This document shows positions 5,037-33,301 of a DNA stretch of 40,303 nucleotides, one piece after another. A program made the position numbers and the translations under genes. A model generated the notes under the pieces. The model did no database searches and was not told the origin of the DNA. It saw nothing but the letters and a program-made list of their open reading frames with translations. The stretch comes from Chloroflexota bacterium (lineage in GTDB: Bacteria > Chloroflexota > Anaerolineae > Anaerolineales > UBA11579). The DNA lies in assembly GCA_023485685.1 (NCBI GenBank), contig JAMCZK010000042.1:1-40303 (forward strand). Reading direction: 5' to 3'. Numbering within the stretch: position 1 is the stretch's first letter; every line of letters starts with the position of its first letter.

Positions 5037-5876
5037 TCACTGGTTCAGGAATGTCTTTACTGCTTTGCGCACTGCTTCCTTAGCCATATCATCAATCGCA
5101 GTTCCCACGACGATGATATTCACGCCCGTGCCGATGAACGCTTTGAAATTATCGGCGTTGATCCCGCCTTCCGCGATCGTAGGCACCGTTACGGCTTTTA
5201 GCATGGCTTCCAATCGTTCTTTTACTGGTGGCGCGATCTCGCCTGCTTTAGCCCCTTCGTAACTCATGCCCGTCATCAGCCCGACGAAATCAACACCGAT
5301 GTCCTGCATTTTTTTGGCGGTTTCGGCAACATCAGCCGGTTTGTCCGCAGGAATCCCGAAGAGATGCCTGTCGCTTGGGCTGGCAATGTAGGCGTCAATC
5401 AACAGGCCGTTCTTGTGGCCCAGATCAACTACTGCCTTCAGGTCCTCAATCGTTGACTTGTGTGTATGCAATCCATCAGCTCCGGACCGTGAAAGTAGCG
5501 CCATATCTTCATCGATTAATGGGGTAGGGACGACTTCAGCAAAGGTCCCTGGAACACCCGCGGTGATATAGATGTCTGGCCCAACTACATTGCGAACCCC
5601 ACTGATTACCTCAGCCATCTGTAGAAGTGTTATTTCGTGACGGACATTTTCTGCATCATGCATATTTGTCACGCCCTTATGACCGCGGGCTAACGCCGTT
5701 GCAGGATGGTTGGGTTCAATGAGTTTCGCTCCGGCTTGGACAGCGGCTAACGCCATTCGGGCGTCATCGCCGCTGATGCCTGTCGAGAGCAAAGTTGTTC
5801 CGCCATGCAGTTTGATTGCTTCCAAAACCTTTTTTCTGCCGGCCTCTCTTTTTTGATACATATCTCCAATTATCAT
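5037..5876 (-). CDS. TIM-barrel protein, probable phosphosugar aldolase/decarboxylase-like enzyme
   Basis: Predicted cytosolic (beta/alpha)8 enzyme. I place the start at the ATG at 5876 (MIIGDMYQKREAGRKK) because it has a GAGG ribosome site 6 nt upstream; the longer ORF in the track would overlap the upstream gene and has no such site. This gives 279 aa. The C-terminal third carries the standard phosphate-binding pattern of TIM barrels, TIAEGGINADNF then IIVVGTAIDDM, as in HisA/HisF, ThiE and 3-keto-gulonate-6-phosphate decarboxylase relatives. Middle strands contain acidic and His residues (DGLHTHKS, DAYIASPSDRH) that could form an active site. It lies 34 nt after the permease gene, so it probably acts on the imported compound or its phosphate. 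I cannot name the reaction. Confidence 0.6.
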   Translation of the reverse strand: MIIGDMYQKREAGRKKVLEAIKLHGGTTLLSTGISGDDARMALAAVQAGAKLIEPNHPATALARGHKGVTNMHDAENVRHEITLLQMAEVISGVRNVVGPDIYITAGVPGTFAEVVPTPLIDEDMALLSRSGADGLHTHKSTIEDLKAVVDLGHKNGLLIDAYIASPSDRHLFGIPADKPADVAETAKKMQDIGVDFVGLMTGMSYEGAKAGEIAPPVKERLEAMLKAVTVPTIAEGGINADNFKAFIGTGVNIIVVGTAIDDMAKEAVRKAVKTFLNQ

Positions 5877-5910
5877 TAAGTACCTCGGTTCTTTGTGTAT
5901 TCCTGTTTTT

Positions 5911-7464
5911 TTATGACGCCATTTTCCGTTTTGCAATTTGGTTGGCAATAAGGGTTAGCACACATGCGACAATGGCAGCGATTGCCATTGAAGCGGCAAA
6001 CCCAAACGGATTATTTGAAACAGTGGGAGCCACAAAAGTGGGCAGGTATCCAGATCCACGTGCGTTAAAGAACCCGGTGAAAGCACCGCCAATCGTGGCT
6101 GAGATCAACGCGATGGCAAAGACTAATTTATCCGCAAACATGAATGGATAAGCTGCCTCAACAAAGGTGCCGAATGCCATGTTCACAAAGAAGCCAGGCG
6201 CGGCAACAGAGGCTTCACTTTTTTGTCTTGGGCCAATAATATTGGCAAGCGTGATGCCTGCCGATACCATTACTAAACCAACCATGTCAACGGCGCCCAG
6301 AAAACTGTTCCCCTGCAATTCCATCTCCAGAAGAATGATGGGGAGAATTGCCGCGTGATATACGCCACCGATAATTGCCGGCCAAATCAGCAAGCCGGCA
6401 ACCGCGCCAGCGAGTATTGCGTTGTAATCTAGGGCAATTTGGATCAGTTCACGCATACCGTTGCCGAGCCAGAGGGTAATCGGCGCCAGCCCAAAGTAAA
6501 TGGTCAAGCCGCCAATCATGCCGCCTAAAGCACCAGCGATCAGGCTGGATGTAGTTGCGGGAAAACGCATTCGGAATGACCACTGCAGCAGGTAGCTGGC
6601 CAAAATGCCGGCGAGAATGCCGCCAACGATGCCGCCCAGGATTCCCCCACTGACTGACAAGGTTCCGGCCACAACGCCGGCCACTATGCCTACCTCATCC
6701 AATCCTGATACCTGCTTGGCGGCAACCACCGCTACTACGACTGGTAGAGCAGCAATCAGGACATCAAAGATCGGCCCAACAGATTCGTTGAGGAAAGGGA
6801 TTTTGCCAATGGCCAGTACTAGGGCCATGGCGATAAACGCGGGGAGCGATGCCATCATAATGCTGCGCAAATTGATGCGCTTGAAGATATTGCCGGTATC
6901 CACCTCCGCCGCTTTGCCAATCACTGGGCTGTACTTAGTCTTCCATTCGGATGCAAATGCAGATATATACCCCACTGCTCTAGTACGGTTGGTTGATCCG
7001 GTTGTGCCCGAAGAAGAAATTACGTTTGCCCCTAAAGAGCGAGCATTGGACATGGAACTTCCGCCGGTCCCAGCGACAGGGATTTTCTTATCCGCTGCCG
7101 CCTTAACGACTTCTGAGTTGATTCCTTTTGGATCAGCTGAGACCAGAATAAGCCCGTCGACTTCTCCATTCCTGATCGACGCTGCCAGAGCTTTGTTTTC
7201 AGATTCTGCTTGTTTATTTACCTCAGCCAGTTTTCCCTCATTAGCCGGAACAGGCCCACTTGATGACTGCTTCCAGAGGATGGCTTTGGTTTGCTCAGTT
7301 ACATGATCGAGGCTTGAATTGGCTGCCACAAAAACAACGTGGCTGATTTCCAGATTTGCTGCTTTGGCCTGACTGGCTATTTCTTCGAGCAGCACTTGGG
7401 GGTTATTGCCTCCAAGCACATACAAATGCCCCCCACTGCTACCTACGACAGCGATCTTTTTCAT
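5911..7464 (-). CDS. Fructose-type PTS IIC-like permease with N-terminal Rossmann-like domain
   Basis: A 517-aa protein. Residues 1-185 are soluble: MKKIAVVGSSGGH, then VDGLILVSADPKG and IPVAGTGGSSMSNARSLG, an alternating beta/alpha pattern reminiscent of a nucleotide or sugar-phosphate binding fold. It has no IIB cysteine-phosphorylation motif. Residues about 190-515 hold about nine or ten helices. GGVYHAAILPIILLEMEL and FGTFVEAAYPFMFADK recall the conserved regions of fructose-family IIC proteins. The start has an AAGGAG 6 nt upstream of the ATG. The TIM-barrel gene follows 34 nt later, so they form an operon. No EI, HPr, IIA or IIB is encoded nearby, so transport may be uncoupled from phosphorylation, or the soluble domain may replace IIB. 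The substrate is unknown. Confidence 0.65.
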   Translation of the reverse strand: MKKIAVVGSSGGHLYVLGGNNPQVLLEEIASQAKAANLEISHVVFVAANSSLDHVTEQTKAILWKQSSSGPVPANEGKLAEVNKQAESENKALAASIRNGEVDGLILVSADPKGINSEVVKAAADKKIPVAGTGGSSMSNARSLGANVISSSGTTGSTNRTRAVGYISAFASEWKTKYSPVIGKAAEVDTGNIFKRINLRSIMMASLPAFIAMALVLAIGKIPFLNESVGPIFDVLIAALPVVVAVVAAKQVSGLDEVGIVAGVVAGTLSVSGGILGGIVGGILAGILASYLLQWSFRMRFPATTSSLIAGALGGMIGGLTIYFGLAPITLWLGNGMRELIQIALDYNAILAGAVAGLLIWPAIIGGVYHAAILPIILLEMELQGNSFLGAVDMVGLVMVSAGITLANIIGPRQKSEASVAAPGFFVNMAFGTFVEAAYPFMFADKLVFAIALISATIGGAFTGFFNARGSGYLPTFVAPTVSNNPFGFAASMAIAAIVACVLTLIANQIAKRKMAS

Positions 7465-7470
7465 CTCTAG

Positions 7471-7476
7471 CTCCTT
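7471..7476 (-). promoter_or_regulatory. Shine-Dalgarno AAGGAG of the permease gene
   Basis: AAGGAG on the minus strand lies 6 nt upstream of the ATG at 7464 and fixes that start. Confidence 0.8.
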
Positions 7477-7570
7477 CAGATATATGTCCTACTTTTTATA
7501 AATTCCAAAAATAGGTATTTTCTCGTCGCACCTCCTGGCAAATTAGCCAATTCAAGCATATAATTGATGG

Positions 7571-7587
7571 TGGAATTTCTATTTCCA
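7571..7587. promoter_or_regulatory. Candidate operator palindrome in the divergent promoter region
   Basis: TGGAA-N7-TTCCA lies in the 199-nt region between the permease operon (minus) and the regulator-like gene (plus), flanked by the partly symmetric GATGG/CATCG. A second near-palindrome, TGAACCGGTCA, lies close to 7613-7623. Their placement fits an operator for a divergently encoded regulator, but nothing in the sequence shows which protein binds. Confidence 0.35.
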
Positions 7588-7663
7588 TCGATGCAATTAT
7601 GTGTGTTTGGGTGTGAACCGGTCAATCAGAATGGCAGCTATTGCGATTTAGGGAAAATAGAAT

Positions 7664-8737
7664 ATGCCAATGGATAACAAAGGAATTTCGCAGTTCAGGG
7701 ACACGGCGGTAGACAGCGGGAATATTTTAAACCGCTGGCTTACCCTTAGTGGTGTTTCGAGAGGAATGATTTTGAAGGAAATGAATCAATCTGGGGTCTT
7801 GAACACCAAAATTGGATTTAAGACATTTCAACAATGGACCTCGTCCGGGGAATCCGCCAAAAAAATTAGCGGCAGGAATAACGAAGAAGCTGGGTCAAGA
7901 TTGGTGGAAATTGTTAAATGGTTCTTTAACGAGCATCTTCACCGAAAATCCGGGATCATGTTGACTAATGAGCTTGAGGACCTTATTCGTCTTTATGAAG
8001 ACATTCCGGTTCTGAATCGCTTGCAGTTGCACCGAATACTGCATGACCTGGAAGTGGCCAATCATGAACGCACAATCACCCTGCCAATAAACCCGGATTG
8101 GAAGAAACAATTGCGCGAGCAACCTTTATGCGCCTTCGTGATGGACCCGTATTGGTGCATAAGAGCCACTACGCACTACGAACTGGCCTTTGCAGGGTTT
8201 TCCGAAGAGGACCTTCGGAACTGGGGCTGTTGGCACCGATTGACTGCAAGTATCAATAATATTCCCAAGCACGTGCCTGGCAGTCCGATGAGTTCTTCCC
8301 GCGGGCCTTATGCCCGAGAGTATTATGTGAACCAATTATCCAGATTCCGTCATTTGACCAAACCTCTAATAAGAAGCAAAGATTCAAGAATGGTTCTAAT
8401 TTTGGAATTACTAAACGAATCGCCCTATTTTAAAGAAGTGTGGGAGCTTTCTTTGAATAATGACAAGTCGTTGAATTCCTATTCTATTGGTTTTCCCGTG
8501 CCATTTTTTAAGAAAGATGATACTTTGCTTTGGATGATGGAATTGAGCGTGGAAATCTCAAATTCTGATGGATTGCATCTAATACATTGGACCCCTATTA
8601 ATCGGGATTCAAATTTCTATATTGCTGACTTTTGTAAAAAGGTGGATCGATCTGGCAATTTTACTAAGTCCTGCTATTTTATTGAGGACTACGCTCATTA
8701 TTTCACTGAGAATCAGCGAAAAGCTTTGAATGTTTAA
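7664..8737 (+). CDS. Probable transcriptional regulator with N-terminal DNA-binding and C-terminal sensor-like region
   Basis: A 357-aa soluble protein with no signal or membrane segment. Residues about 18-75 (WLTLSGVSRGMILKEMN ... FKTFQQWTSSG) are predicted helical and HTH-like in layout, ending in the 'W-T-S-S-G' seen where recognition helices end. Residues about 130-350 begin with LCAFVMDPYWCIRATTHYEL, which resembles the start of the MmyB-type ligand-binding/PAS-like domain of some XRE regulators. The gene is divergent from the permease/TIM-barrel operon with a candidate operator between, a common arrangement for a local regulator. It is AT-richer than the chromosome around it. The regulator call is inferred from layout and weak motif similarity. 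It could equally be an unrelated sensor. Confidence 0.45.
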   Translation: MPMDNKGISQFRDTAVDSGNILNRWLTLSGVSRGMILKEMNQSGVLNTKIGFKTFQQWTSSGESAKKISGRNNEEAGSRLVEIVKWFFNEHLHRKSGIMLTNELEDLIRLYEDIPVLNRLQLHRILHDLEVANHERTITLPINPDWKKQLREQPLCAFVMDPYWCIRATTHYELAFAGFSEEDLRNWGCWHRLTASINNIPKHVPGSPMSSSRGPYAREYYVNQLSRFRHLTKPLIRSKDSRMVLILELLNESPYFKEVWELSLNNDKSLNSYSIGFPVPFFKKDDTLLWMMELSVEISNSDGLHLIHWTPINRDSNFYIADFCKKVDRSGNFTKSCYFIEDYAHYFTENQRKALNV

Positions 8738-9246: not shown

Positions 9247-10083
9247 ATGCCAAAAGAAAAGACAAAATCCAGCGAGGATAAAGGGGAAAAAGGACAAAAA
9301 CGGGCTACAGGCGGCGCCCGGGCCATCTGGTCTGGGGCAATCGCCTTTGGCCTGATTAATATCCCGGTCAAGCTGTTCTCGGCCACTCAGGAACATGAGT
9401 TGGCCTTCCATCAACTGCGTAAAAGCGATATGTCGCGCATCAAATACCTGCGCGTGGCAGCCAATGACGGTCAGGAGGTTCCTTACGAGGATATCGTCAA
9501 AGGATATGAGATCGAGGAGGGTGTGCACGTTGTAATCGATGAGGAGGATCTCCAGAAGGCCGCACCCAAAAAGACGCAAACCATCGAGATCGTTTCCTTT
9601 GCCGACGAAGATGAAATTGACAGCATCTATTTTGAAAAACCCTACTTCACCGCCCCCGACAAGAATGCAGTCCGGGCTTACGTCCTTTTGCGGGAGGCAT
9701 TGAAGGAGACCAAGAAAGTCGCCATCGCCAAGTTCGTCTTGCGCACCAAAGAGAATCTTGCCATCCTCAAGCCTGAAGGCGATGCCCTCATTCTGAATCA
9801 GATCCGCTTCCAATCTGAATTGCGCGAGCGCGAACACCTTAATCTGCCCGGCGCAGAGGATATGAAGAAGCAGGAACTCGATCTCGCCGTAAGCCTGGTA
9901 AATCAGCTTACCGACAAGTTCAAACCGGAAGAGTTCACGGACACATTTACCGATGAGTTAAAGCAGATCATCGAGCAAAAGGCCAAGGGCATTGACATTA
10001 CTGCGGAATTGGCTAAGCTTGAAGCGCCGGCTGACACCGATTTGTTAGAGACCTTGCGAGCCAGCCTGGAAAAGGCAAAATAG
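9247..10083 (+). CDS. ku: Ku protein (NHEJ DNA end-binding)
   Basis: Prokaryotic Ku, 278 aa, the usual length. It forms a homodimeric ring that threads onto double-strand break ends and recruits LigD. ARAIWSGAIAFGLINIPVKL is the classic Ku-core start, followed by the beta-barrel region (FHQLRKSDMSRIKY, EVPYEDIVKGYEI) and the PYFTAPDK and ALKETKKVAIAKFVLRTKE segments. The C-terminal arm is helical and Lys-rich. The first ~20 residues are a basic, low-complexity extension. AAAGGAA lies 6 nt upstream of the ATG. The gene is followed 122 nt later by ligD on the same strand, the typical bacterial NHEJ pair, with a palindromic repeat between them. Confidence 0.96.
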   Translation: MPKEKTKSSEDKGEKGQKRATGGARAIWSGAIAFGLINIPVKLFSATQEHELAFHQLRKSDMSRIKYLRVAANDGQEVPYEDIVKGYEIEEGVHVVIDEEDLQKAAPKKTQTIEIVSFADEDEIDSIYFEKPYFTAPDKNAVRAYVLLREALKETKKVAIAKFVLRTKENLAILKPEGDALILNQIRFQSELREREHLNLPGAEDMKKQELDLAVSLVNQLTDKFKPEEFTDTFTDELKQIIEQKAKGIDITAELAKLEAPADTDLLETLRASLEKAK

Positions 10084-10111
10084 CAAATCCGCTGAGCAAT
10101 TTCGCTTGCAG

Positions 10112-10202
10112 CCGTAGGGGCGGAGCCTGTCCCGAGTGAGCCGCTAAGCGGCGACGAGGGATCTAAGACCCGCCCGTCATTGCGAGCGAAGCGAGCAATG
10201 AC
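10112..10202. repeat. REP-like palindromic element between ku and ligD
   Basis: It contains the cassette CCTGTCCCGAGTGAGCC...GGCGACGAGGG and ends with GTCATTGC...GCAATGAC, an 8-bp inverted pair (10176-10202). The same modules recur in the larger elements at 12.9, 14.5, 15.5 and 38.1 kb. It ends only 3 nt before the ligD ATG. Confidence 0.8.
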
Positions 10203-10205
10203 TAA

Positions 10206-12803
10206 ATGCCAGATCAAGCGGATAGCTTAAAGGAATATCGCCAGAAACGCGATTTCCGCAAAACCAGTGAACCCGCGGGCGACCTCAAACAGGCGGGCGC
10301 CCAAGCAAAGCGCGCCGAACAGGCGCGCTTTGTCGTGCAAATGCACGCCGCCACCCGCTTGCATTACGACTTCCGTCTCGAAGTCAATGGCCTGCTCAAA
10401 TCCTGGGCGGTGCCGCAGGGGCCATCCACCGACCCACAGGTTAAGCGTTTGGCGGTCGAGACCGAAGACCACCCGATGGAGTATCTGGACTACGAAGGCG
10501 TGATCCCTAAAGGCGAATACGGCGCCGGCCCCGTGATCGTTTGGGACACCGGGACTTACGAAAATATACGCGCCGAGAAGCGCAAACCGTACACCATGGA
10601 ACAAGCCTACCAGGAGGGATTGATCGAAATCAGGCTCGACGGCGAAAAACTGCACGGTGAATACGCACTGGTGCGCACCAAATTCCAAGGCGACCAAAAG
10701 AATTGGTTGCTGGTGAAAATGAAGGATAGCTATGCCGACCCGGAACTCGACATCGTTGCCGAGTTCCCTAATTCGGTGAAGAGCGGCAAGACCATCGAGC
10801 AGGTCAGCGACGAGGCCAGCCATAACGCCATGCACCCGGCCCTGAAAATGATTCCCGAAGAGTACCTCGATCGCCTGGAAGAATCCGCTTACCCCGGCTG
10901 GCAGGAGCCCATGCTGGCGACGCCTGCTGACAAGCCGTTCTCGCGCGCCGATTGGATCTACGAACAAAAACTGGACGGCCAGCGCTGCATCATCTTCCGC
11001 AAAGCTGATCAGGTGCAGATGGTATCGCGCAACAAGATCATCGTCACACAGCAGTATCCCGAATTGGCTGCTGCACTCAAAGCGCAGGGCAAAGGCGATT
11101 TTGTGGTGGATGGCGAGATCGTGGCCTTCGAAAATGGGCGCACCAGTTTCGAACAAATGCAGAAGCGCATGCATGTGACCAAACCCAGTAAAGAACTCAT
11201 TGCCGAGACCAAAGTTTATTTGTACTTATTCGACATCCTTTATCTGGATGGTCATTCCACAACCAAGCTGCCGCTGACCGAGCGCAAAGAAGTACTGAAA
11301 GAAGTCGTCGAATACAAGGATCCGCTGCGCTACATGGAACATCGCGAAGGCGACGGCGAGAAATTCCTGAAAGAAGCCTGCGCCCAGGGGTTGGAAGGGT
11401 TGATCGCCAAGGACGGCAATTCGCAGTACCAGCACTGCCGCTCCAGCAGTTGGCTGAAATTCAAGTGCGTGCGCAGCCAGGAAGCCGTCATCGGCGGCTG
11501 GACCGAAGGAACCTCTGGAATGCGCGGCTTCGGCTCGCTGCTGGTGGGCACCTACCAGGATGGCAAGCTGCTTTTCGCCGGCGGTGTAGGCACCGGCTTT
11601 AACGACAAGGCCATTCGCGATATCCGTTTGAAACTCGATGAGCTGGCTGCCGATAAGAATCCGTTTGAGCCTGACCCCTGGCTGCCTGACACCGATGTGC
11701 ATTGGGTGAAGCCGGAACTGGTAGCCCAGGTCGGCCATAGCGATTGGACCAAACAGGGCAAGATGCGCCATCCGCGCTTCCTGGGGCTGCGCACCGACAA
11801 GGACCCGCGCGAAGTGGTGCGCGAGACCCCGAATGCGGTTGCCCCGCCGCCAATGGACGGCGGCGCGCCGGGGCGGGGCAGGGCGATCTCCAAGGATGTT
11901 TGGCGCGTCGTGGAGGGGCAGCGTATCAAACTGAGCAACCTGGACAAGGTCTTGTTCCCCGGCGGCATCACCAAAGGGCAGGTGATCGACTATTACGAAC
12001 AGATCGCTTCAACCATGCTGCCGCATATCAAGGACCGTCCGCTCAACATGGAACGCTTCCCGGATGGCATCCAAAAGAAGGGTTTCTATCACAAAGAGGC
12101 GCCAGAATATTTCCCCAGGTACATTGATTTAGTCGAGGTGGAGGTCAGCGAAACCGAAACCCAAATGCAGCCGATGGCCAATAAGGCTGCCAGCCTTGTT
12201 TACTTGGTGCAGATGGCCGCGCTGACTCTGCACCACTGGATGAGCCGCAAACAGGACCTGCACAAGCCCGATAAGATCGTATTCGACCTCGACCCTTCGA
12301 CCGAAGAAGGCTGGGAGGTGGTCATCGAAGGCGCCTACGATCTGCGCGCCATGCTCACCGAGATGGGCTTGCCCTCCTTCGTCATGGTCACCGGCTCGCG
12401 CGGGCTGCATATCGGCCTGCCGATAAAGCCCGAGCACGATTACGCCACTGTGCAGCTATTCACCAAGGCGGTGTGCACCACGCTCGAGCGCCGCGACCCG
12501 AAGTTCACTACCAAGTTCCGTAAGGAAAAACGCAAGGACCGCGTTTTTCTGGATTATCTGCGCAACCGTTACGGGCATACCAGCGTGGCGCCTTACACCA
12601 TTCGGGCGCGCAACGGGGCGCCGGTAGCCGCGCCCATCGATTGGGAGGAGCTGAAGGATCCCAAGCTGCGCTCGAACCAATTCACCATTGCCAATGTAAT
12701 CGAGCGGGTGACAAAGATCGGTGACCCGTGGAGGGATTTCGACAGCTTCCAGACCTCGCTGCCGAGCTTCGAGAAGATCGAAAAAGTGCTGGCGGGAAAA
12801 TAG
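10206..12803 (+). CDS. ligD: LigD: multifunctional NHEJ DNA ligase (phosphoesterase-ligase-polymerase)
   Basis: An 865-aa single-chain end-joining enzyme with domains in the order PE-LIG-POL, as in Pseudomonas LigD. PE domain, about 20-165: FVVQMHAATRLHYDFRLE carries the His/Asp metal residues and GVIPKGEYGAG follows. ATP-dependent ligase, about 235-545: the nucleotidyl-acceptor Lys is in EQKLDGQR near 255, with further motifs VVDGEIVAFE, EGLIAKDG and SSWLKFK. Polymerase, about 565-850: a primase-like fold with the catalytic pair in FDLDPS near 695 and SRGLHIGLP. It acts with Ku at break ends, trimming 3' phosphates or ribonucleotides, filling and sealing. There is no clear Shine-Dalgarno, because a palindromic repeat occupies the region just upstream of the ATG. 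Confidence 0.96.
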   Translation: MPDQADSLKEYRQKRDFRKTSEPAGDLKQAGAQAKRAEQARFVVQMHAATRLHYDFRLEVNGLLKSWAVPQGPSTDPQVKRLAVETEDHPMEYLDYEGVIPKGEYGAGPVIVWDTGTYENIRAEKRKPYTMEQAYQEGLIEIRLDGEKLHGEYALVRTKFQGDQKNWLLVKMKDSYADPELDIVAEFPNSVKSGKTIEQVSDEASHNAMHPALKMIPEEYLDRLEESAYPGWQEPMLATPADKPFSRADWIYEQKLDGQRCIIFRKADQVQMVSRNKIIVTQQYPELAAALKAQGKGDFVVDGEIVAFENGRTSFEQMQKRMHVTKPSKELIAETKVYLYLFDILYLDGHSTTKLPLTERKEVLKEVVEYKDPLRYMEHREGDGEKFLKEACAQGLEGLIAKDGNSQYQHCRSSSWLKFKCVRSQEAVIGGWTEGTSGMRGFGSLLVGTYQDGKLLFAGGVGTGFNDKAIRDIRLKLDELAADKNPFEPDPWLPDTDVHWVKPELVAQVGHSDWTKQGKMRHPRFLGLRTDKDPREVVRETPNAVAPPPMDGGAPGRGRAISKDVWRVVEGQRIKLSNLDKVLFPGGITKGQVIDYYEQIASTMLPHIKDRPLNMERFPDGIQKKGFYHKEAPEYFPRYIDLVEVEVSETETQMQPMANKAASLVYLVQMAALTLHHWMSRKQDLHKPDKIVFDLDPSTEEGWEVVIEGAYDLRAMLTEMGLPSFVMVTGSRGLHIGLPIKPEHDYATVQLFTKAVCTTLERRDPKFTTKFRKEKRKDRVFLDYLRNRYGHTSVAPYTIRARNGAPVAAPIDWEELKDPKLRSNQFTIANVIERVTKIGDPWRDFDSFQTSLPSFEKIEKVLAGK

Positions 12804-25593: not shown

Positions 25594-27612
25594 ATGTTGC
25601 CATCGAAGGAACTGGAACAACGCGCCATCAATACCCTGCGTTTTCTTTCCGCGGACGCGGTGCAGAACGCCGATTCGGGCCACCCCGGCCTGCCGATGGG
25701 CGCCGCACCGGTGGGCTATACCCTATGGACGCGGCACCTGCGCCACAATCCGCGTAACCCGAAATGGGCCGACCGCGATCGGTTCGTGCTTTCCGGCGGC
25801 CATGGCTCGATGCTGCTTTACTCGCTGCTGCACCTCACCGGCTACGATCTTTCCCTCGATGAAATCAAACGCTTCCGCCAATGGGGCAGCAAGACCCCCG
25901 GCCACCCGGAATATTGGGTGGCGCCTGGCGTAGAGACCAGCACCGGGCCGCTCGGCCAGGGTTTCGCCAATGCGGTTGGCATGGCCATAGCTGAAGCGCA
26001 CTTAGCCAGCCGCTTCAACCGACCGGGCCATGAAATTTTCAACTACTTTATCTATGCCATCGTCACGGACGGGGATTTGATGGAAGGCATCAGTTCCGAG
26101 GCGGCCTCAATTGCCGGTCACTTGAAGCTGGGCAAGATTATTTTTCTTTACGATGACAACAACATTTCCATCGACGGCAGCACCAATTTGACTTTCACAG
26201 AAAACGTGGGCGCTCGCTTCGAAGCATACGGCTGGCACGTGCAGCATGTGGCCGATGGCAACGACGTCGAAGGCATCGATGCTGCTATCCGGGCTGCCAA
26301 GGAGGATCCGCGGCCTTCGCTGATCCGCGTGCGTTCCATCATCGGTTACGGCCTGCCCAAGCGGGCCGGCACCGAAAAGGCGCATGGCGAGCCGCCCGGC
26401 ATCCAGGAACTGAATGGCGCCAAGCAGAAACTCGGCTGGCCGCTGGAGCCTTGGTTCTTGATCCCGGGCGATGTGCTGGAATTTTTCCGTGGGGCTATCG
26501 ATGAAGGGGAGCGTCACGAAAAGGAATGGCAATCCAGGCTGGCTGCGTATCGCCAGGCGCATCCCCAGCTCGCCGACGAATTGCAGCGTGTGTTGGATGG
26601 AGCGCTGCCGCGAGGCTGGGATGCGGATTTACCAGTTTTCCCCGCCGATGCCAAAGGGATGGCCACCCGCGTTTCTGCCGGCAAGGTACTGAACGCCATC
26701 GCCGAAAAGTTGCCTGATCTCATCGGCGGCTCGGCAGATTTGCATCCATCCACGAAAACGTTCATTGATTCGGCGCCCGATTTCCAGGCTGCCACCCCCG
26801 AAGGGCGCAGCATTCATTTTGGCGTACGCGAGCACGCCATGGGCGGCATCGTCAACGGGATGAATCTAACCCCCGGCACCATCGCCTTCGGCGCCACTTT
26901 TCTGATCTTTTCGGATTACATGCGCCCTGCGGTCCGTTTGTCTGCGCTGTCTCCATACCCCAGCATCTGGGTCTACACCCACGACAGCATTGGCCTTGGC
27001 GAGGACGGACCCACGCATCAGCCCGTGGAGCACCTGGCCTCGTTGCGCGCTATGCCCAACCTGGTGGTCATCCGACCGTCGGATGCCAACGAAGCCCGCG
27101 AAGCCTGGATCGCCGCCATTCGCCGCCGCGAAGGCCCGACCTGTCTCGTTCTCACGCGCCAGAATTTGCCCACCCTGGACCGCAAGGAGTTCGCGCCCGC
27201 TAAGGAGTTGCACAAGGGTGCCTACGTTTTGGCAGATCTCGGCAAGAAAGCGCCCGAAATCATTTTGATGGCTTCCGGCTCCGAAGTACAGTTGATTATT
27301 GAAACTGGCAAGAGATTGGCGAAAGCCGGCCACGGCGTGCGCCTGGTCGCCTTCCCGTCGTGGGAATTATTCGAAGCGCAAACAAAACGCTACAAGGAAC
27401 AAGTTCTGCCTCCGCGTATCAAACTGCGCCTGGCTGTGGAAGCCGGCGTTGCGCAGGGATGGGAACGCTGGGTGGGTGAGCGCGGTGCGATCATCTCGCT
27501 GGAGCGCTACGGCGTCTCTGCGCCCGGAGATATCGCCATGGAGAAGCTCGGCTTTAGCGTGAACAATGTGCTCAGGCATGCGCGGTCGCTGTTGCGCACG
27601 AAGAAGAGATAA
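25594..27612 (+). CDS. tkt: Transketolase
   Basis: A 672-aa thiamine-diphosphate enzyme moving two-carbon units between ketose and aldose phosphates in the non-oxidative pentose phosphate pathway. N-terminal domain: [35 protein letters not shown] and the ThDP/Mg motif [19 protein letters not shown] (GDG near 157, with the later N in YDDNNIS). Middle domain: [16 protein letters not shown] carries the catalytic Glu, and [20 protein letters not shown] is a transketolase signature. A C-terminal regulatory domain follows. GAGGAG lies 9 nt before the ATG. It is the first gene of a same-strand run with the methyltransferase and transaldolase. Confidence 0.97.
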
Positions 27613-27633
27613 CCTTGCCAAACAAACGATCTC

Positions 27634-27687
27634 CGTCATTGCGAGCGAGCCGCCGCCCTGAGCGGAGCGAACGGGGAAGCAATCTCC
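27634..27687. repeat. REP-like element between tkt and the methyltransferase
   Basis: CGTCATTGCGAGCGAGCC ... GGGGAAGCAATCTCC: a short single-unit member of the GTCATTGCGAG family. It lies within the open frame upstream of the methyltransferase, where it would encode a spurious Arg/Ser-rich N-terminus. Confidence 0.8.
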
Positions 27688-27701
27688 CGGCTGGAACGCG
27701 A

Positions 27702-28571
27702 ATGGATATGGGTTTCAAAGCGCGTGTTGTCCTTGGGGACAATCTGCCCATATTACGTTCCATCCCCGATTCATCCGTCAATCTCATTTACATCGATCCG
27801 CCATTCAACACCGGGAAGAAACAGGCGCGCACGCGCCTGCGCACAGTGCGCAGCAAAAATGGTGACCGCAAGGGATTCCAGGGACAGCGGTACGCCACGA
27901 CCGTTTTGGGTAGCCGGGCTTTCAGCGATCAATTTGATGACTACCTGGCGTTTTTGGAGCCTCGGTTGCGGGAAGCCCATCGTGTGTTAGCCGCCGACGG
28001 CAGCTTGTACTTCCACGTAGATTATCGCGAAGTGCATTATTGTAAAATCTTGCTGGACGAAATTTTCGGGCGCGAAAATTTTCTGAATGAGATCATCTGG
28101 GCTTACGATTACGGCGGCCGCGCCAAGGACCGCTGGCCTGCCAAACACGATAACATCTTGCTCTATGTGAAGGATAACAAGCGTTACACCTTCAACGTTG
28201 GTGACATCGAGCGCATCCCTTACATGGCGCCCGGCTTGGTGGGCGAGGAGAAGGCCGCCCGCGGCAAGCTGCCCACGGATACCTGGTGGCATACCATCGT
28301 CAGCCCTACGGGCAAGGAAAAGACCGGATATCCCACTCAAAAACCGCTTGGCATCCTTCGCCGCATCGTCGCGGCCTCTTCGAATCAGGGCGATCTGGTG
28401 CTCGATTTCTTTGCCGGATCCGGCACGACTGGTGCGGCAGCTTTGGAGTTGGGGCGCCGCTTTTTACTTGTTGACAATAATGAAGAAGCAGTCAATGTGA
28501 TGAAAGAGCGCTTTCAAGGCCAAGGAGTTGAGTTTCTTGCTTCGCCTGAAATCGCCAAGGAGTCCTCATGA
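27702..28571 (+). CDS. Orphan DNA methyltransferase, beta class (N4-C or N6-A)
   Basis: S-adenosylmethionine-dependent DNA methyltransferase of 289 aa from the ATG at 27702 (MDMGFKARVVLGDN). The track start at 27615 lies before a palindromic repeat and would add 29 repeat-coded residues. The catalytic motif IV (YIDPPFNTGKK, DPPF type) comes before motif I (LDFFAGSGTTGAAALELGR), the order of the beta class, which includes CcrM-like and many N4-cytosine/N6-adenine enzymes. PTQKPLGILRRIV is motif X-like. The target-recognition region lies between (about 90-215). No restriction endonuclease is adjacent, so it is probably a solitary epigenetic methylase. It overlaps the tal start by 4 nt (ATGA), so it is co-translated with pentose phosphate genes. 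Confidence 0.85.
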   Translation: MDMGFKARVVLGDNLPILRSIPDSSVNLIYIDPPFNTGKKQARTRLRTVRSKNGDRKGFQGQRYATTVLGSRAFSDQFDDYLAFLEPRLREAHRVLAADGSLYFHVDYREVHYCKILLDEIFGRENFLNEIIWAYDYGGRAKDRWPAKHDNILLYVKDNKRYTFNVGDIERIPYMAPGLVGEEKAARGKLPTDTWWHTIVSPTGKEKTGYPTQKPLGILRRIVAASSNQGDLVLDFFAGSGTTGAAALELGRRFLLVDNNEEAVNVMKERFQGQGVEFLASPEIAKESS

Positions 28572-29692
28572 CCACCAATCCAAAAAAACTCTACGAACTG
28601 GGGCAGTCGCTTTGGTATGACAATATCGAGCGCCGCTTGTTGAACAATGGCGAGCTCCACGAAATGATCCAACGCGGCGATGTTTATGGCGTTACCTCCA
28701 ACCCCAGCATCTTTAACAACGCCATCGCCAAATCCAAGGATTACGACGCGCGGCTCACTGAGCTAGCTCACGCCGGCCGCAGCACAGCCGAGATCTACGA
28801 TGAGCTGACCATCAGCGATATCCAGGCGGCCTGCGATCTGTTCCGCCCGCTGTACGATTCCACCCGCGGCGGGGATGGTTACGTCAGCATCGAAGTGCAC
28901 CCCGATTTAGCCAACGATACCGAGGAAACCAATAAAGAGGTACAACGCCTCTGGGGCCTGGTGGATAGGCCCAATCTGATGGTGAAGATCCCGGCTACCG
29001 CCGCCGGCGTCCCGGCCATCCGGCATTCGGTTTCGACAGGCGCCAACATCAATATCACACTGATATTTGCCCGCTCGCGCTACGCCGAAGTCATCGAAGC
29101 CTACCTTGCCGGCCTTGAGCGTCGCGTCGAAAATAACCTGCCCATCGGCCATCAGGCTTCAGTTGCTTCTTTCTTTGTGTCCCGCATCGACACCAAGGTT
29201 GATGGCTGGCTGGATGAGATCATCAAGAAGGGCGGGGCGGAGGCCAAGAAAGCTGAGTCGCTTAAAGGCAAAGTCGCTGTGGCCAATGCCAAATTGGCCT
29301 ATCAGTTGTTCAAAGAACAGTTCGCCACGCCGCGCTTCGAAGCTCTAAAAAAGAAAGGTGCTCGCTTGCAGCGTCCCCTGTGGGCTTCCACCAGCACCAA
29401 GAACCCCGCCTACAACGATTTGCTTTACGTGGAACCCTTGATTGGAGCCAATACGGTGAACACCGTTCCCCAACAGACCCTGGACGCGGTGAAGGACCAC
29501 GCTAAGACCGAACTGACCATCGAAAACGATCTGGAGGGCGCCCGACAGGTGCTGTCCGATTTGGAATCCCTGGGTCTTTCACTCGACCAGGCAACCGCCG
29601 AAATAGAGGTGGAAGGTGTCGACGCCTTTAGCAAAGCCATCCACGCGGTGTTCGACACCATTGAGAAACGTTCCCAGAGTCTGGTGGCTTAG
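28568..29692 (+). CDS. tal: Transaldolase
   Basis: A 374-aa TIM-barrel enzyme transferring dihydroxyacetone units between sugar phosphates. GDVYGVTSNPSIFNNAIAKS, VSIEVHPDLANDTEETNKEV and PNLMVKIPATAAGVPAI contain the Schiff-base Lys (in MVKIPAT, near 141). ASVASFFVSRIDTKVDGWLD and PLWASTSTKNPAYNDLLYVE follow. The length fits the longer transaldolase subfamily found in Actinobacteria, Cyanobacteria and Chloroflexota. AAGGAG lies 5 nt upstream, and the start overlaps the methyltransferase stop. A strong terminator follows 16 nt after the stop, closing the tkt-methyltransferase-tal unit. Confidence 0.96.
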   Translation: MTTNPKKLYELGQSLWYDNIERRLLNNGELHEMIQRGDVYGVTSNPSIFNNAIAKSKDYDARLTELAHAGRSTAEIYDELTISDIQAACDLFRPLYDSTRGGDGYVSIEVHPDLANDTEETNKEVQRLWGLVDRPNLMVKIPATAAGVPAIRHSVSTGANINITLIFARSRYAEVIEAYLAGLERRVENNLPIGHQASVASFFVSRIDTKVDGWLDEIIKKGGAEAKKAESLKGKVAVANAKLAYQLFKEQFATPRFEALKKKGARLQRPLWASTSTKNPAYNDLLYVEPLIGANTVNTVPQQTLDAVKDHAKTELTIENDLEGARQVLSDLESLGLSLDQATAEIEVEGVDAFSKAIHAVFDTIEKRSQSLVA

Positions 29693-29708
29693 CTAGTAAT
29701 CCATTTTT

Positions 29709-29743
29709 CAACGAGGCGCAACCCCTTGCGCCTCGTTGTGTTT
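29709..29743 (+). terminator. Rho-independent terminator after tal
   Basis: A 12-bp perfect stem, CAACGAGGCGCA / TGCGCCTCGTTG, with a 6-nt loop followed by TGTTT. It separates tal from the crotonase-family gene. Confidence 0.85.
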
Positions 29744-29753
29744 AAGCGCCTAG

Positions 29754-30545
29754 ATGCCTATGGAAACCAGTTTCGCCAATTCGCAGGGAATTGAATACAG
29801 CATCAGCGGCGGCGGGGTTGCCACTCTAACCGTGAACCGCCCTGAAGTCCGCAACGCGCTGGACTGGGAGGCTATGGGCGCCTTCGCCGAAGCTGTCGAA
29901 CGCGCCGCACATTCGCTTAATTTGCGTACCCTTATCGTCACCGGCGGCGGTGATACCTTCGTTTCGGGCGGCGACCTCAAGGCGCTTTCCAAATATCCAA
30001 AGGAGCATCACGGGCTAAGGCTGGCTGTCATCATGGGCAAGGCATTGGAGCGCCTGCGCGCTTTGCCGTGCCCAACCATCGCCGCCATCAACGGGCCCGC
30101 TCGCGGCGGCGGCGCTGAGATCGCCGCAGCCTGCGACCAGCGTGTCATGGCCGAAGGCGCCGACATCGGTTTTGTTCACGCTCGCTTGGGCATCACTACT
30201 GCTTGGGGCGGGGCGCGCTACCTGCTGCAGCTGGTCGGCTACCCAATGGCGCTGGAGCTACTCACCACCGGCCGCGTACTGAATGCGCAGGAGGCCAAAG
30301 AGATTGGCCTCGTGGATCACGTCACCGCGCCAGGAGAGGCATTGACCACCGCGCTCGATTTAGCGCGCATCATGGCGCAGCACCCTATCGAAGCGGTGCG
30401 CGCCGCCAAGCGCCTGTTGCGCTTTGCGGTGGCCAACCCGCTAGTGGCCAAGCACGCCGAGCGCCGGCTCTTTGCCGGGCTCTGGGACTCCGAATTCCGG
30501 AGACAGGCCGTGGCAAGATTCCTAAATCGACATAAACATGATTGA
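29754..30545 (+). CDS. Enoyl-CoA hydratase/isomerase (crotonase) family protein
   Basis: A 263-aa crotonase-fold protein acting on an acyl-CoA thioester. VNRPEVRNALDWEAM, VSGGDLKALSKYP and the oxyanion-hole segment INGPARGGGAEIAAACDQRV are conserved. The region that in hydratases reads 'PEIKLGIIPGAGG' reads FVHARLGITTAWGGARYL here, two residues shorter and without the usual catalytic Glu. A similar 'FVH...GI/L...WGG' segment occurs in ECHDC1-type (ethyl/methylmalonyl-CoA decarboxylase) proteins, so a decarboxylase or proofreading role is possible. The start is weakly marked; ATG 29754 or 29760 may be used. Its link to the pentose phosphate neighbours is not evident. Confidence 0.82.
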   Translation: MPMETSFANSQGIEYSISGGGVATLTVNRPEVRNALDWEAMGAFAEAVERAAHSLNLRTLIVTGGGDTFVSGGDLKALSKYPKEHHGLRLAVIMGKALERLRALPCPTIAAINGPARGGGAEIAAACDQRVMAEGADIGFVHARLGITTAWGGARYLLQLVGYPMALELLTTGRVLNAQEAKEIGLVDHVTAPGEALTTALDLARIMAQHPIEAVRAAKRLLRFAVANPLVAKHAERRLFAGLWDSEFRRQAVARFLNRHKHD

Positions 30546-30570
30546 AGCCGCAAGGCTTTCTACAAATCCA

Positions 30571-30600
30571 GCACCGGTAGGGGCAGGTTACCCCGCCCTT
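30571..30600. repeat. Short palindromic repeat (GTAGGGGC...GCCCTTAC family)
   Basis: GGTAGGGGCAGG-TTA-CCCCGCCCTTAC forms an imperfect hairpin of a third repeat family also present near 40215-40300 and, in part, near 10115. It lies just upstream of the gnd promoter region. Confidence 0.6.
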
Positions 30601-30677
30601 ACTGAGCCACCAAAATTCTCATAGCATAAGCACAAACTAAGAAGGCTATACTTGCTGTGCGAACTAAGGAGCCATCT

Positions 30678-31589
30678 ATGCAATTAGCAATCCTGGGTCT
30701 TGGACGCATGGGCGGCAATATGGCGCGTCGTCTGCTTAAAGCCGGCCATGAAGTCATCGGCTATAACCGCACTCGCCAGGTCACCGAAGCTCTTCAAAAA
30801 GAAGCGGGTCTTATCGCCGCATTTTCTTTCCAAGAAATCGTTCAGAAGCTCAAAGCTCCTCGCGTCGTCTGGCTCATGCTTCCCGCTGGCGATGCCACCG
30901 AAAATACACTGCAGGAGCTAACCGGCCTGGTATCAAAAGGCGACATTATTGTCGATGGTGGCAACTCTAATTTCCGTGACACCATGCGGCGTGCCGAAAT
31001 GCTGGCCGCGAAAGGAATCCGCATGCTGGATGCCGGCGTCAGTGGCGGCATCTGGGGTCTGGACGAAGGCTATTCGTTGATGATCGGCGGGGACCAAAAA
31101 ATCGCTGAACATCTGCGCCCCATCTTCGAAAGCCTGGCGCCGGCGCCCGACAAGGGCTGGGGGCGCGTAGGCCCCAGCGGGGCAGGTCACTTCGTCAAGA
31201 TGGTGCACAACGGGATCGAGTACGGCATGATGCAATCGCTGGCCGAGGGTTTTGAAATCATGCAAGCCCGCGAGGACTTTGGCCTCGATTTACACCGAGT
31301 GGCCGAAATTTGGCAGCACGGCTCCGTGGTCCGCTCCTGGCTGCTCGACCTGGCTGAACGCGCCTTGAAGGACGATCCCAAATTGAACAACATTGCCGAT
31401 TGGGTGGAGGATTCCGGCGAAGGCCGCTGGACGGTGTTCGAGGCCATCAACGAAGACGTGCCCGCGCCCGTGATCACCCTGGCGTTATTGCAAAGACTGG
31501 CTAGCCGCCAGGAAACCAGCTTTGCCGGCAAGATGCTGGCCGCTTTGCGCAATCAGTTCGGGGGCCATGCAATCAAGAAATCTCGCTAA
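30678..31589 (+). CDS. gnd: 6-phosphogluconate dehydrogenase (decarboxylating), short form
   Basis: Oxidises and decarboxylates 6-phosphogluconate to ribulose 5-phosphate. I choose the ATG at 30678 (MQLAILGLGRMGGNMARRLL) with AAGGAG 8 nt upstream; the GTG in the track has no ribosome site. 303 aa, the short GntZ/YqeC type lacking the long C-terminal tail of the E. coli enzyme. A Rossmann GLGRMGG is followed by GYNRTR; the Asn-Arg after strand 2 usually favours NADP. IIVDGGNSNFRDTMRR, DAGVSGGIWGLDEGYSLMIG and the catalytic Lys/Asn in GHFVKMVHNGIEYGMMQ are present. It lies about 220 nt ahead of zwf, the preceding pathway step. Confidence 0.95.
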   Translation: MQLAILGLGRMGGNMARRLLKAGHEVIGYNRTRQVTEALQKEAGLIAAFSFQEIVQKLKAPRVVWLMLPAGDATENTLQELTGLVSKGDIIVDGGNSNFRDTMRRAEMLAAKGIRMLDAGVSGGIWGLDEGYSLMIGGDQKIAEHLRPIFESLAPAPDKGWGRVGPSGAGHFVKMVHNGIEYGMMQSLAEGFEIMQAREDFGLDLHRVAEIWQHGSVVRSWLLDLAERALKDDPKLNNIADWVEDSGEGRWTVFEAINEDVPAPVITLALLQRLASRQETSFAGKMLAALRNQFGGHAIKKSR

Positions 31590-31591
31590 TT

Positions 31592-31625
31592 CCCATTGCG
31601 AGCGAGCGGAGCGAGCGTGGCAATC
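31592..31625. repeat. REP-like unit upstream of the zwf duplication
   Basis: CCATTGCGAGCGAGCGG ... GTGGCAATCCCC, a single unit of the GTCATTGCGAG family between gnd and zwf. A diverged sister unit (GTTGCGAGGAGTGGC ... GAAGCAATCCCC) lies at 31751-31794, just before the real zwf start. Confidence 0.7.
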
Positions 31626-31892
31626 CCCGAGCTGAGGCAGCATGGCACTTCCCAATAATCGAGTGGATTCCGCCGCTATGGGTCTCGTGATTTTCGGCGT
31701 CACGGGCGACTTGGCTCATCGCAAATCCAGGAAAGCTTTGCTTTCCGCAGTTGCGAGGAGTGGCTTGCGGAGCCAGCCCAACGAAGCAATCCCCGAGCTG
31801 AGGCAGCATGGCACTTCCCAATAATCAAGAGGATTCCGCCGCAACAGGTCTCGTGATTTTCGGCGTCACGGGCGACCTGGCTCATCGCAAAT
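31620..31892 (+). repeat. 107-bp tandem duplication of the zwf 5' end (offset 166 bp)
   Basis: 31620-31726 and 31786-31892 are the same sequence with about six mismatches. Each copy includes the leader CCCCGAGCTGAGGCAGC, the ATG and the first ~28 codons of zwf. Copy 1 reads MALPNNRVDSAAMGLVIFGV and runs out of the zwf frame after HRK, ending at 31824. Copy 2 is the true gene start ([20 protein letters not shown]). A REP-like unit lies between the copies. The first copy therefore looks like a truncated decoy ORF (31642-31824) that overlaps the true start. Confidence 0.9.
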
Positions 31893-33301
31893 TAGTCCCC
31901 GCCCTTTACCAACTAGAACTAGACAATCACCTCCCCGAAAATTTTCACATTATTGGCTTCGCCCGTCGTGAATGGAACGATGACAAGCTTCGTTCCGAGA
32001 TGGAAGCCGCGGTGCGCGAGTTTGCGCGCAGCCAACCCGTCGACGAGAAGGCGCTGCAACGCGTGCTCAATCGCATGCACTACCTCGTAAGTAATTTCAC
32101 CGAGGTATCTGGCTACCGCGAACTTGCAAAGCAGCTGGACAAGCTGGAAGCGAAAAATCGTCTTTACTATCTTGCCACCCCACCCGACGCATACACCGCG
32201 ATCATCGGGAATTTGGGCAAAGCCGATCTGGGGAAAAACTCAGAGGGCTGGACGCGCATCGTAGTGGAAAAACCCTACGGCCGCGACCTGGAATCGGCGA
32301 AACAATTAGAAGCGGAAATCCATCTGGTCTTCAACGAAGACCAGATCTACCGCATCGACCATTATTTGGGTAAGGAAACCGTCCAGAACATCCTTGTCTT
32401 CCGCTTTGCCAACGGCATTTTTGAGCCGCTCTGGAACCGGCGTTACGTGGAATGTGTCCAGATCACCGTTGCCGAAACCATCGGCGTGAATGGCCGCACA
32501 GAATATTTCGACAGCGCCGGCGTGATCCGCGACATGCTGCAGAATCACATTCTGCAACTACTTACGCTTACCGCCATGGAAGCCCCGGTGGCCTTCAGCG
32601 CCGACGCGGTGCGCGACGAAAAGGTGAAAGTGCTGCGCTCGCTGCACCCGCTGCGCGGCGAGCACGCCATCCGCAACACACTGCGCGCCCAATATTCCGC
32701 AGGCAGCCAGAATGGGGACAGCATTCGCGCTTATTTGGATCACGAAGGTGTGGCGAAAAAATCCACCACAGAGACCCTACTGGCCATGCGCATTGGCATC
32801 GACAACTGGCGCTGGGCTGGTGTTCCATTTTTCATTCGCTCCGGCAAGCACATGCCCAAACGGATGACAGAAATTGCCGTGCAATACAAACAGACTCCTT
32901 TGGCCCTGTTTGGCGCTCGCAACATGGCTGGCGATGCCCCCAACCGTTTGCTGCTGAACATCCAACCGGAAGAAGGCATCACGCTCACCTTCGGCGCCAA
33001 GGCGCCCGGCCCCGAGAACACGATCCAATCGGTGCAGATGGATTTCTCCTACGCGGAAACCTTCGGCGCCAGCTCCCCGGAGGCTTACGAGCGCCTGCTG
33101 ATGGATTGCATGAATGGCGACGCCACGCTGTTCACCCGCAGCGATGAAGTGCTGGCTGCCTGGTCCTTTGTGGACGACATCCTCAAGGCTTGGGCGCAGC
33201 ACCCGGTCAAGAAATTACCCCAATACAAGCCCGGCACCTGGGGGCCGCCTGAAATCGATGAATTCATGCATGGCCACGGCAGTATCTGGCACACGCACTA
33301 A
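31808..33301 (+). CDS. zwf: Glucose-6-phosphate 1-dehydrogenase
   Basis: A 497-aa enzyme oxidising glucose 6-phosphate to 6-phosphogluconolactone with NAD(P). The N-terminal Rossmann motif is [20 protein letters not shown]. The active-site signature [20 protein letters not shown] lies near 181, with the substrate Lys and catalytic His. [20 protein letters not shown] and the C-terminal [16 protein letters not shown] are also conserved. No 6-phosphogluconolactonase gene is in the window. The start is in the second copy of a 107-bp duplication, and no clear Shine-Dalgarno beyond GAGCTGAGGC precedes it. The gene is convergent with the PEBP-like gene, with only 32 nt between stops and no obvious terminator. 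Confidence 0.97.

Follow-up and report, generated by a model that had tools for sequence, protein, structure and literature searches.

Permeases of the phosphotransferase system (PTS) are usually treated as inseparable from the phosphoenolpyruvate (PEP) phosphorylation chain, and a locus at positions 5037–8737 of a 40,303-nucleotide stretch of a Chloroflexota genome (contig JAMCZK010000042.1 of assembly GCA_023485685.1; the whole stretch is hereafter referred to as the window) raises the question of whether such a permease can also work without it. On the minus strand, this locus encodes a permease in which a soluble N-terminal domain is fused to a membrane domain resembling PTS enzyme IIC (EIIC), with a TIM-barrel protein as the next gene (the two together are referred to as the cassette), while a probable regulator is encoded divergently. 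An earlier note on this DNA had suggested that the permease may be a PTS-derived, PEP-independent transporter. We likewise favor, with a probability of roughly 0.6, a transport-plus-enzyme module whose EIIC-derived permease moves its solute without PEP-driven phosphorylation.

The permease was found in 11 of the 400 genomes sampled from the order, and the TIM-barrel gene lies beside it in all 11. Our search of these carriers for PTS components covered enzyme I (EI, PF05524), HPr, and PTS_IIB (PF02302), with IIA families and other IIB families outside its scope. EI was detected in 184 of the 400 genomes, and was absent from four carriers, G505 (94% complete), G539 (89%), G612 (97%), and G672 (80%). 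HPr was missing from exactly the same four, so that the presence of both proteins in every carrier, as expected for a PTS enzyme II, is not seen. PTS_IIB was undetected in these four, and also in G176 (99% complete) and G436, both of which contain EI and HPr; as a positive control, PTS_IIB was found in no genome that lacked both EI and HPr. The sole PEP-utilizers_C match in G505/G303 lies in a 953-amino-acid frame, the size of PPDK. Incompleteness of the metagenome-assembled genomes (MAGs) alone would leave at least four of 11 carriers without these genes with a probability of ~0.01, if EI and HPr are counted as one event and completeness is taken as the gene-wise probability. G612 is assembled in two contigs and is uniform in composition (tetranucleotide similarity, including the operon region, of 0.94 vs. 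0.75–0.87 to other genomes), which makes mis-binning unlikely in this genome. The presence of the permease is not associated with that of EI (7/11 vs. 177/389, p = 0.36), a comparison of low statistical power with only 11 carriers. The permease can apparently be retained without a PTS, and the four carriers with no detectable EI, HPr, or PTS_IIB support, without proving, the PEP independence suggested in the earlier note; the cassette probably works without PEP.

The PTS derivation suggested in the same note is upheld by the EIIC homology of the membrane domain. PF02378 matches it in four of six members, weakly (best E = 3e-6) but over the whole domain, and sub-cut-off matches were obtained to the NCBIfam EIIC models for sucrose (TIGR01996), beta-glucoside (TIGR01995), fructose-like (NF007787), and glucose permeases, among which TIGR01995 reached E = 2.6e-15 in one member, still below its cut-off, over the whole domain. 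The membrane domain also shares 26% identity over 303 aligned positions with a PTS IIC in genome G200, whose gene neighbors include EI, an apparent IIA, and DhaK/DhaL-like genes (all but EI named by eye). It contains an invariant H370 and an invariant FGTFVE-[AS]-AYPFMF segment, whose E436 is invariant in nine homologues and which aligns with the EIIC glutamate segment (FVEAAYPFMF in the permease, ITEFAIPYAA in the G200 protein). Judged from these alignments, the permease has the EIIC-type membrane domain of a PTS enzyme II, a divergent one derived from the glucose/fructose/lactose superfamily. The narrower label “fructose-type” given to it at first is not established, because the matches, all far below cut-off, are split over fructose, sucrose, beta-glucoside, and glucose EIIC models. 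Profile searches of the PDB with either permease domain gave no significant match, and the fold prediction for the membrane domain had a predicted local distance difference test (pLDDT) score of 39, so this model was not used.

By sequence comparison, the soluble domain (residues 1–185) is neither a IIA nor a IIB domain, consistent with its initial description as a non-IIB domain. It had no IIA or IIB match in Pfam, and no cysteine or histidine is invariant in it among nine aligned homologues; the phosphate-carrying residues of IIB (Cys/His) and IIA (His) are therefore missing. Thus the fused protein has no IIB domain that could be phosphorylated on a Cys (or on a His, as in the mannose family). 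Nor does it contain a IIA domain with a phosphorylatable His, and the loci read show none directly adjoining the cassette, IIA families elsewhere in the genomes not having been searched. Its predicted alpha/beta fold resembled response regulators, type II dehydroquinase, RpiB, PurE, SIS domains, and one UPF0261 protein in a fold search; as these matches are generic to alpha/beta proteins and none counted at E < 0.001, the domain was left unassigned. That it is a new coupling or phosphoryl-transfer domain that has replaced EIIB, so that the EIIC-type carrier can use some donor besides PEP for group translocation or active transport, seems quite improbable. Sub-cut-off matches to Peripla_BP_4 over ~50 residues (E = 2e-4 to 4e-5) indicate a weak similarity to the lobes of periplasmic binding proteins, as might be expected if the domain were a sensor and the protein mainly a membrane-bound regulator instead of a transporter. 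We give this very little credence, because the whole membrane domain is strongly conserved, including the EIIC glutamate segment, and the cassette usually has a distinct regulator gene as its neighbor.

The operon partner had been described as a TIM barrel, and it proved to have a homologue of solved structure, matching the PDB profile 4ml9_A at full length (E = 4.3e-141 over profile positions 1–277). PDB 4ML9, from Sebaldella termitidis, was deposited as “Uncharacterized protein.” The C-terminal half of the barrel, with its glycine-rich AEGGIN...VGTA segment, weakly resembles the phosphate-binding barrels NanE, HxlA, and ThiE, which makes it plausible that the protein may bind phosphate. A NanE-type model matched the C-terminal half only (E = 2.8e-9, 36 bits vs. 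a cut-off of 189), Pfam TMP-TENI matched residues 209–285 only, with 27 bits, exactly at its cut-off, and the N-terminal half had no match to these families; the barrel thus shows no full-length, above-cut-off match by which it would be assigned to one of them. A lone orthologue with 69% identity is located on plasmid pn1 of Nostoc sp. UHCC 0926 (L010:8001-8834), with no permease within ~8 kb on each side.

In a sample of 301 genomes of the phylum, only two full-length TIM barrels were found, and the genomes encoding them are also the two that encode a full-length permease. A search of the genome of Ornatilinea apprima (L015, G305), which encodes the permease, revealed no TIM barrel. In one carrier, the permease is in two pieces separated by a TGA stop (G593:C1:989858-991401), possibly representing a pseudogene or a sequencing error. 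The regulator differs among carriers: the divergent arrangement seen in the window, with a probable regulator of the same type as first described, recurs in 8/11 carriers, in G176 and G539 the cassette adjoins a GntR-like gene (identified by eye), and no regulator is adjacent to it in G612. On a Salmonella Infantis contig, the gene order of the cassette is retained, with a permease 50% and a TIM barrel 60% identical to those of the window, and a Cof-type HAD-IIB hydrolase and a DeoR regulator follow. This contig (AFYI01000007.1, L037) is a 501-kb whole-genome-shotgun contig stored with phage records. The four-gene operon is also present in 3 of 5,426 complete E. coli genomes, where its products are annotated as “PTS sugar transporter,” “histidine biosynthesis protein,” Cof-type HAD-IIB hydrolase, and DeoR regulator. 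The plasmid search found no permease and the viral search no relative; the contig scan for relatives used two short patterns only and gave five close relatives, so that lineages other than Chloroflexota and enterics are under-sampled in the distribution described here.

The phosphatase in the enteric operon makes an efflux role possible, in which the TIM barrel, together with the Cof-type phosphatase in enterics, would turn an unwanted phosphorylated metabolite into a free compound that is then exported via the permease. The apparent lack of a need for a PTS among the carriers and the absence of a kinase gene from both the Salmonella and the E. coli operons favor this explanation. However, none of the Chloroflexota loci read has a Cof-type phosphatase directly adjoining the cassette, and EIICs are importers in the known cases, which together make efflux improbable.

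The patchy occurrence of the cassette suggests that it has probably moved horizontally. It was found in no sampled member of the genus to which the genome of the window belongs, and the region around it has a G+C content of 43–52%, vs. ~57% for most of the rest of the genome. The window contig itself is apparently native, since the transketolase encoded elsewhere in it shares 73–78% identity with transketolases of the genus.

The observation in the earlier note that no EI, HPr, IIA, or IIB lies nearby holds for the window, in which no EI, HPr, or PTS_IIB was found, but it is weak evidence, because HPr, a PTS_IIB, a fragment of EI, and (by eye) an ascorbate-type IIC and IIA are encoded elsewhere in its genome, on contig C37. 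Only the first ~103 residues of EI are present there, followed by other sequence before a PPDK gene, and the rest of this 76% complete assembly yielded no C-terminal domain of EI. The cut in EI upstream of PPDK (G000 contig C37, L007:9980-10706) could be a deletion or a mis-assembly. Beside HPr and the EI fragment is probably an amino-sugar PTS locus (L007:2644-9970), in which NagA, two SIS-domain proteins, ascorbate-type IIC, IIA, a DeoR regulator, and a KbaZ-like aldolase subunit were recognized by eye. The genome of the window is therefore a poor test of the need for a PTS in either direction.

Components of this kind are what the permease would use if it were still of the phosphorylating type and borrowed EI, HPr, IIA, and IIB from other systems of the cell, as some orphan EIICs may. 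The homology of its membrane domain to EIIC, the presence of EI and HPr in 7/11 carriers, and the HPr, IIB, and apparent IIA on C37 are all compatible with such borrowing, as are the GntR- and DeoR-type regulators next to the cassette, since regulators of these types often respond to phosphosugars. Nevertheless, in four carriers there is no detectable EI, HPr, or PTS_IIB from which to borrow, G176 and G436 have EI and HPr yet no PTS_IIB, and EI is truncated in the genome of the window, so that we regard borrowing as a real but unlikely possibility.

In the PEP-independent module that we favor, the EIIC-derived membrane domain would act as an elevator-type transporter, as PTS EIICs have been described (PMC7329351; PMC6048161), and would move a small, probably carbohydrate-like solute by facilitated diffusion or ion-coupled transport. 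A precedent for the former is TreB, in which the EIIC is reported to mediate facilitated diffusion of maltose without phosphorylation (PMC3938415). The fused cytosolic alpha/beta domain would take the usual place of EIIB and may gate, bind, or hand over the solute, which the TIM barrel may then convert, either as the free compound (imported or destined for export) or as its phosphorylated derivative. Expression would be controlled by an interchangeable regulator, of the type found in the window or of the GntR or DeoR type.

Several points weigh against this interpretation. EI is present in 7/11 carriers (counting the fragment in the genome of the window), and the four EI-less MAGs could still, with p ~0.01, result from incompleteness, mis-binning being excluded for G612 only. 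The absence of a PTS is judged for IIB by PF02302, IIA and other IIB families not having been searched, and enterics possess a full PTS. Moreover, the EIIC glutamate segment is kept in the permease, so that it might couple to an unlinked IIB in PTS-positive hosts. PEP independence is suggested by gene content.

All three open reading frames (ORFs) of the locus (Table 1) were found at the coordinates first reported for them, and they are real genes, as their homologues retain 41–83% identity across the loci compared: 56–82% over the full length of the permease in Anaerolineaceae-order loci (~50% in Salmonella), 58–83% for the TIM barrel, and 41–61% for the regulator. The probable start codon of the TIM-barrel gene is the ATG at 5876, where its homologues begin and upstream of which lies a GAGG, and not the TTG listed at 5948, from which the ORF would overlap the permease. 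In all eight carriers of the window type, a TTGAC is found at the equivalent intergenic position, followed by a −10-like sequence; the intergenic comparison gave only such promoter-like sequences, and no shared operator palindrome between the divergent genes. The regulator matched no family above cut-off, with a weak match to PAS_3 (E = 0.065) in one of five members.

Table 1. Coordinates of the features of the locus within the window.
Feature	Position	Strand	Basis
Fused permease, 517 amino acids	5911..7464	−	Full-length homologues; E. coli homologue annotated “PTS sugar transporter”
N-terminal soluble alpha/beta domain, residues ~1–185	6910..7464	−	AlphaFold2 model (pLDDT 76.7) and homologue alignments; no invariant Cys/His
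EIIC-like membrane domain, residues 191–517	5914..6894	−	PF02378, sub-cut-off NCBIfam matches, alignment with same-order PTS IIC
TIM-barrel protein, PDB 4ML9 orthologue	5037..5876	−	Profile match to 4ml9_A, E = 4e-141; ORF open to 5948
Divergent probable transcription regulator	7664..8737	+	Conserved and divergent in 8/11 carriers
Likely sigma70-type permease promoter, TTGACC-18 bp-CATAAT	7596..7625	−	TTGAC kept across window-type carriers

Elsewhere in the window, genes recognized by eye include a Ku-like protein beside an ATP-dependent DNA ligase D-like protein, a bacterial end-joining pair (9247-12803), and a row of transketolase, transaldolase-like, 6-phosphogluconate-dehydrogenase-like, and glucose-6-phosphate dehydrogenase genes with other ORFs between them (25594-33301), of which the transketolase alone was searched.

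The components of the cassette are already in databases, where the family is labelled “PTS sugar transporter” yet is uncharacterised, and no paper on the operon or on 4ML9 was found in the library searched. If our interpretation is correct, the fold of EIIC carriers has a second use, as a transporter that acts on its own and is retained together with an enzyme partner dedicated to it where no PTS is detectable; the automatic label would then mislead metabolic reconstruction. The occurrence of the operon in some E. coli strains makes the question experimentally addressable, and the structure of the enzyme partner is already solved.

Compared with known systems, the permease is similar to PTS EIICs of the PF02378 superfamily in that its membrane domain can be aligned over ~300 residues and keeps the glutamate segment, but it differs from them in lacking a IIA or IIB domain, in having another soluble domain at its N-terminus, and in occurring in genomes without detectable EI and HPr. 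Its partner matches PDB 4ML9, itself uncharacterized, at the level of an orthologue across the whole barrel, whereas it shares with the NanE, HxlA, and ThiE barrels the C-terminal half with the glycine-rich segment, mostly far below cut-offs and with the N-terminal half unmatched. The operon of Salmonella Infantis and E. coli has the same fused permease and TIM barrel in the same order, and differs from the locus in the window by the addition of a HAD phosphatase and by having a DeoR regulator instead of the one encoded in the window.

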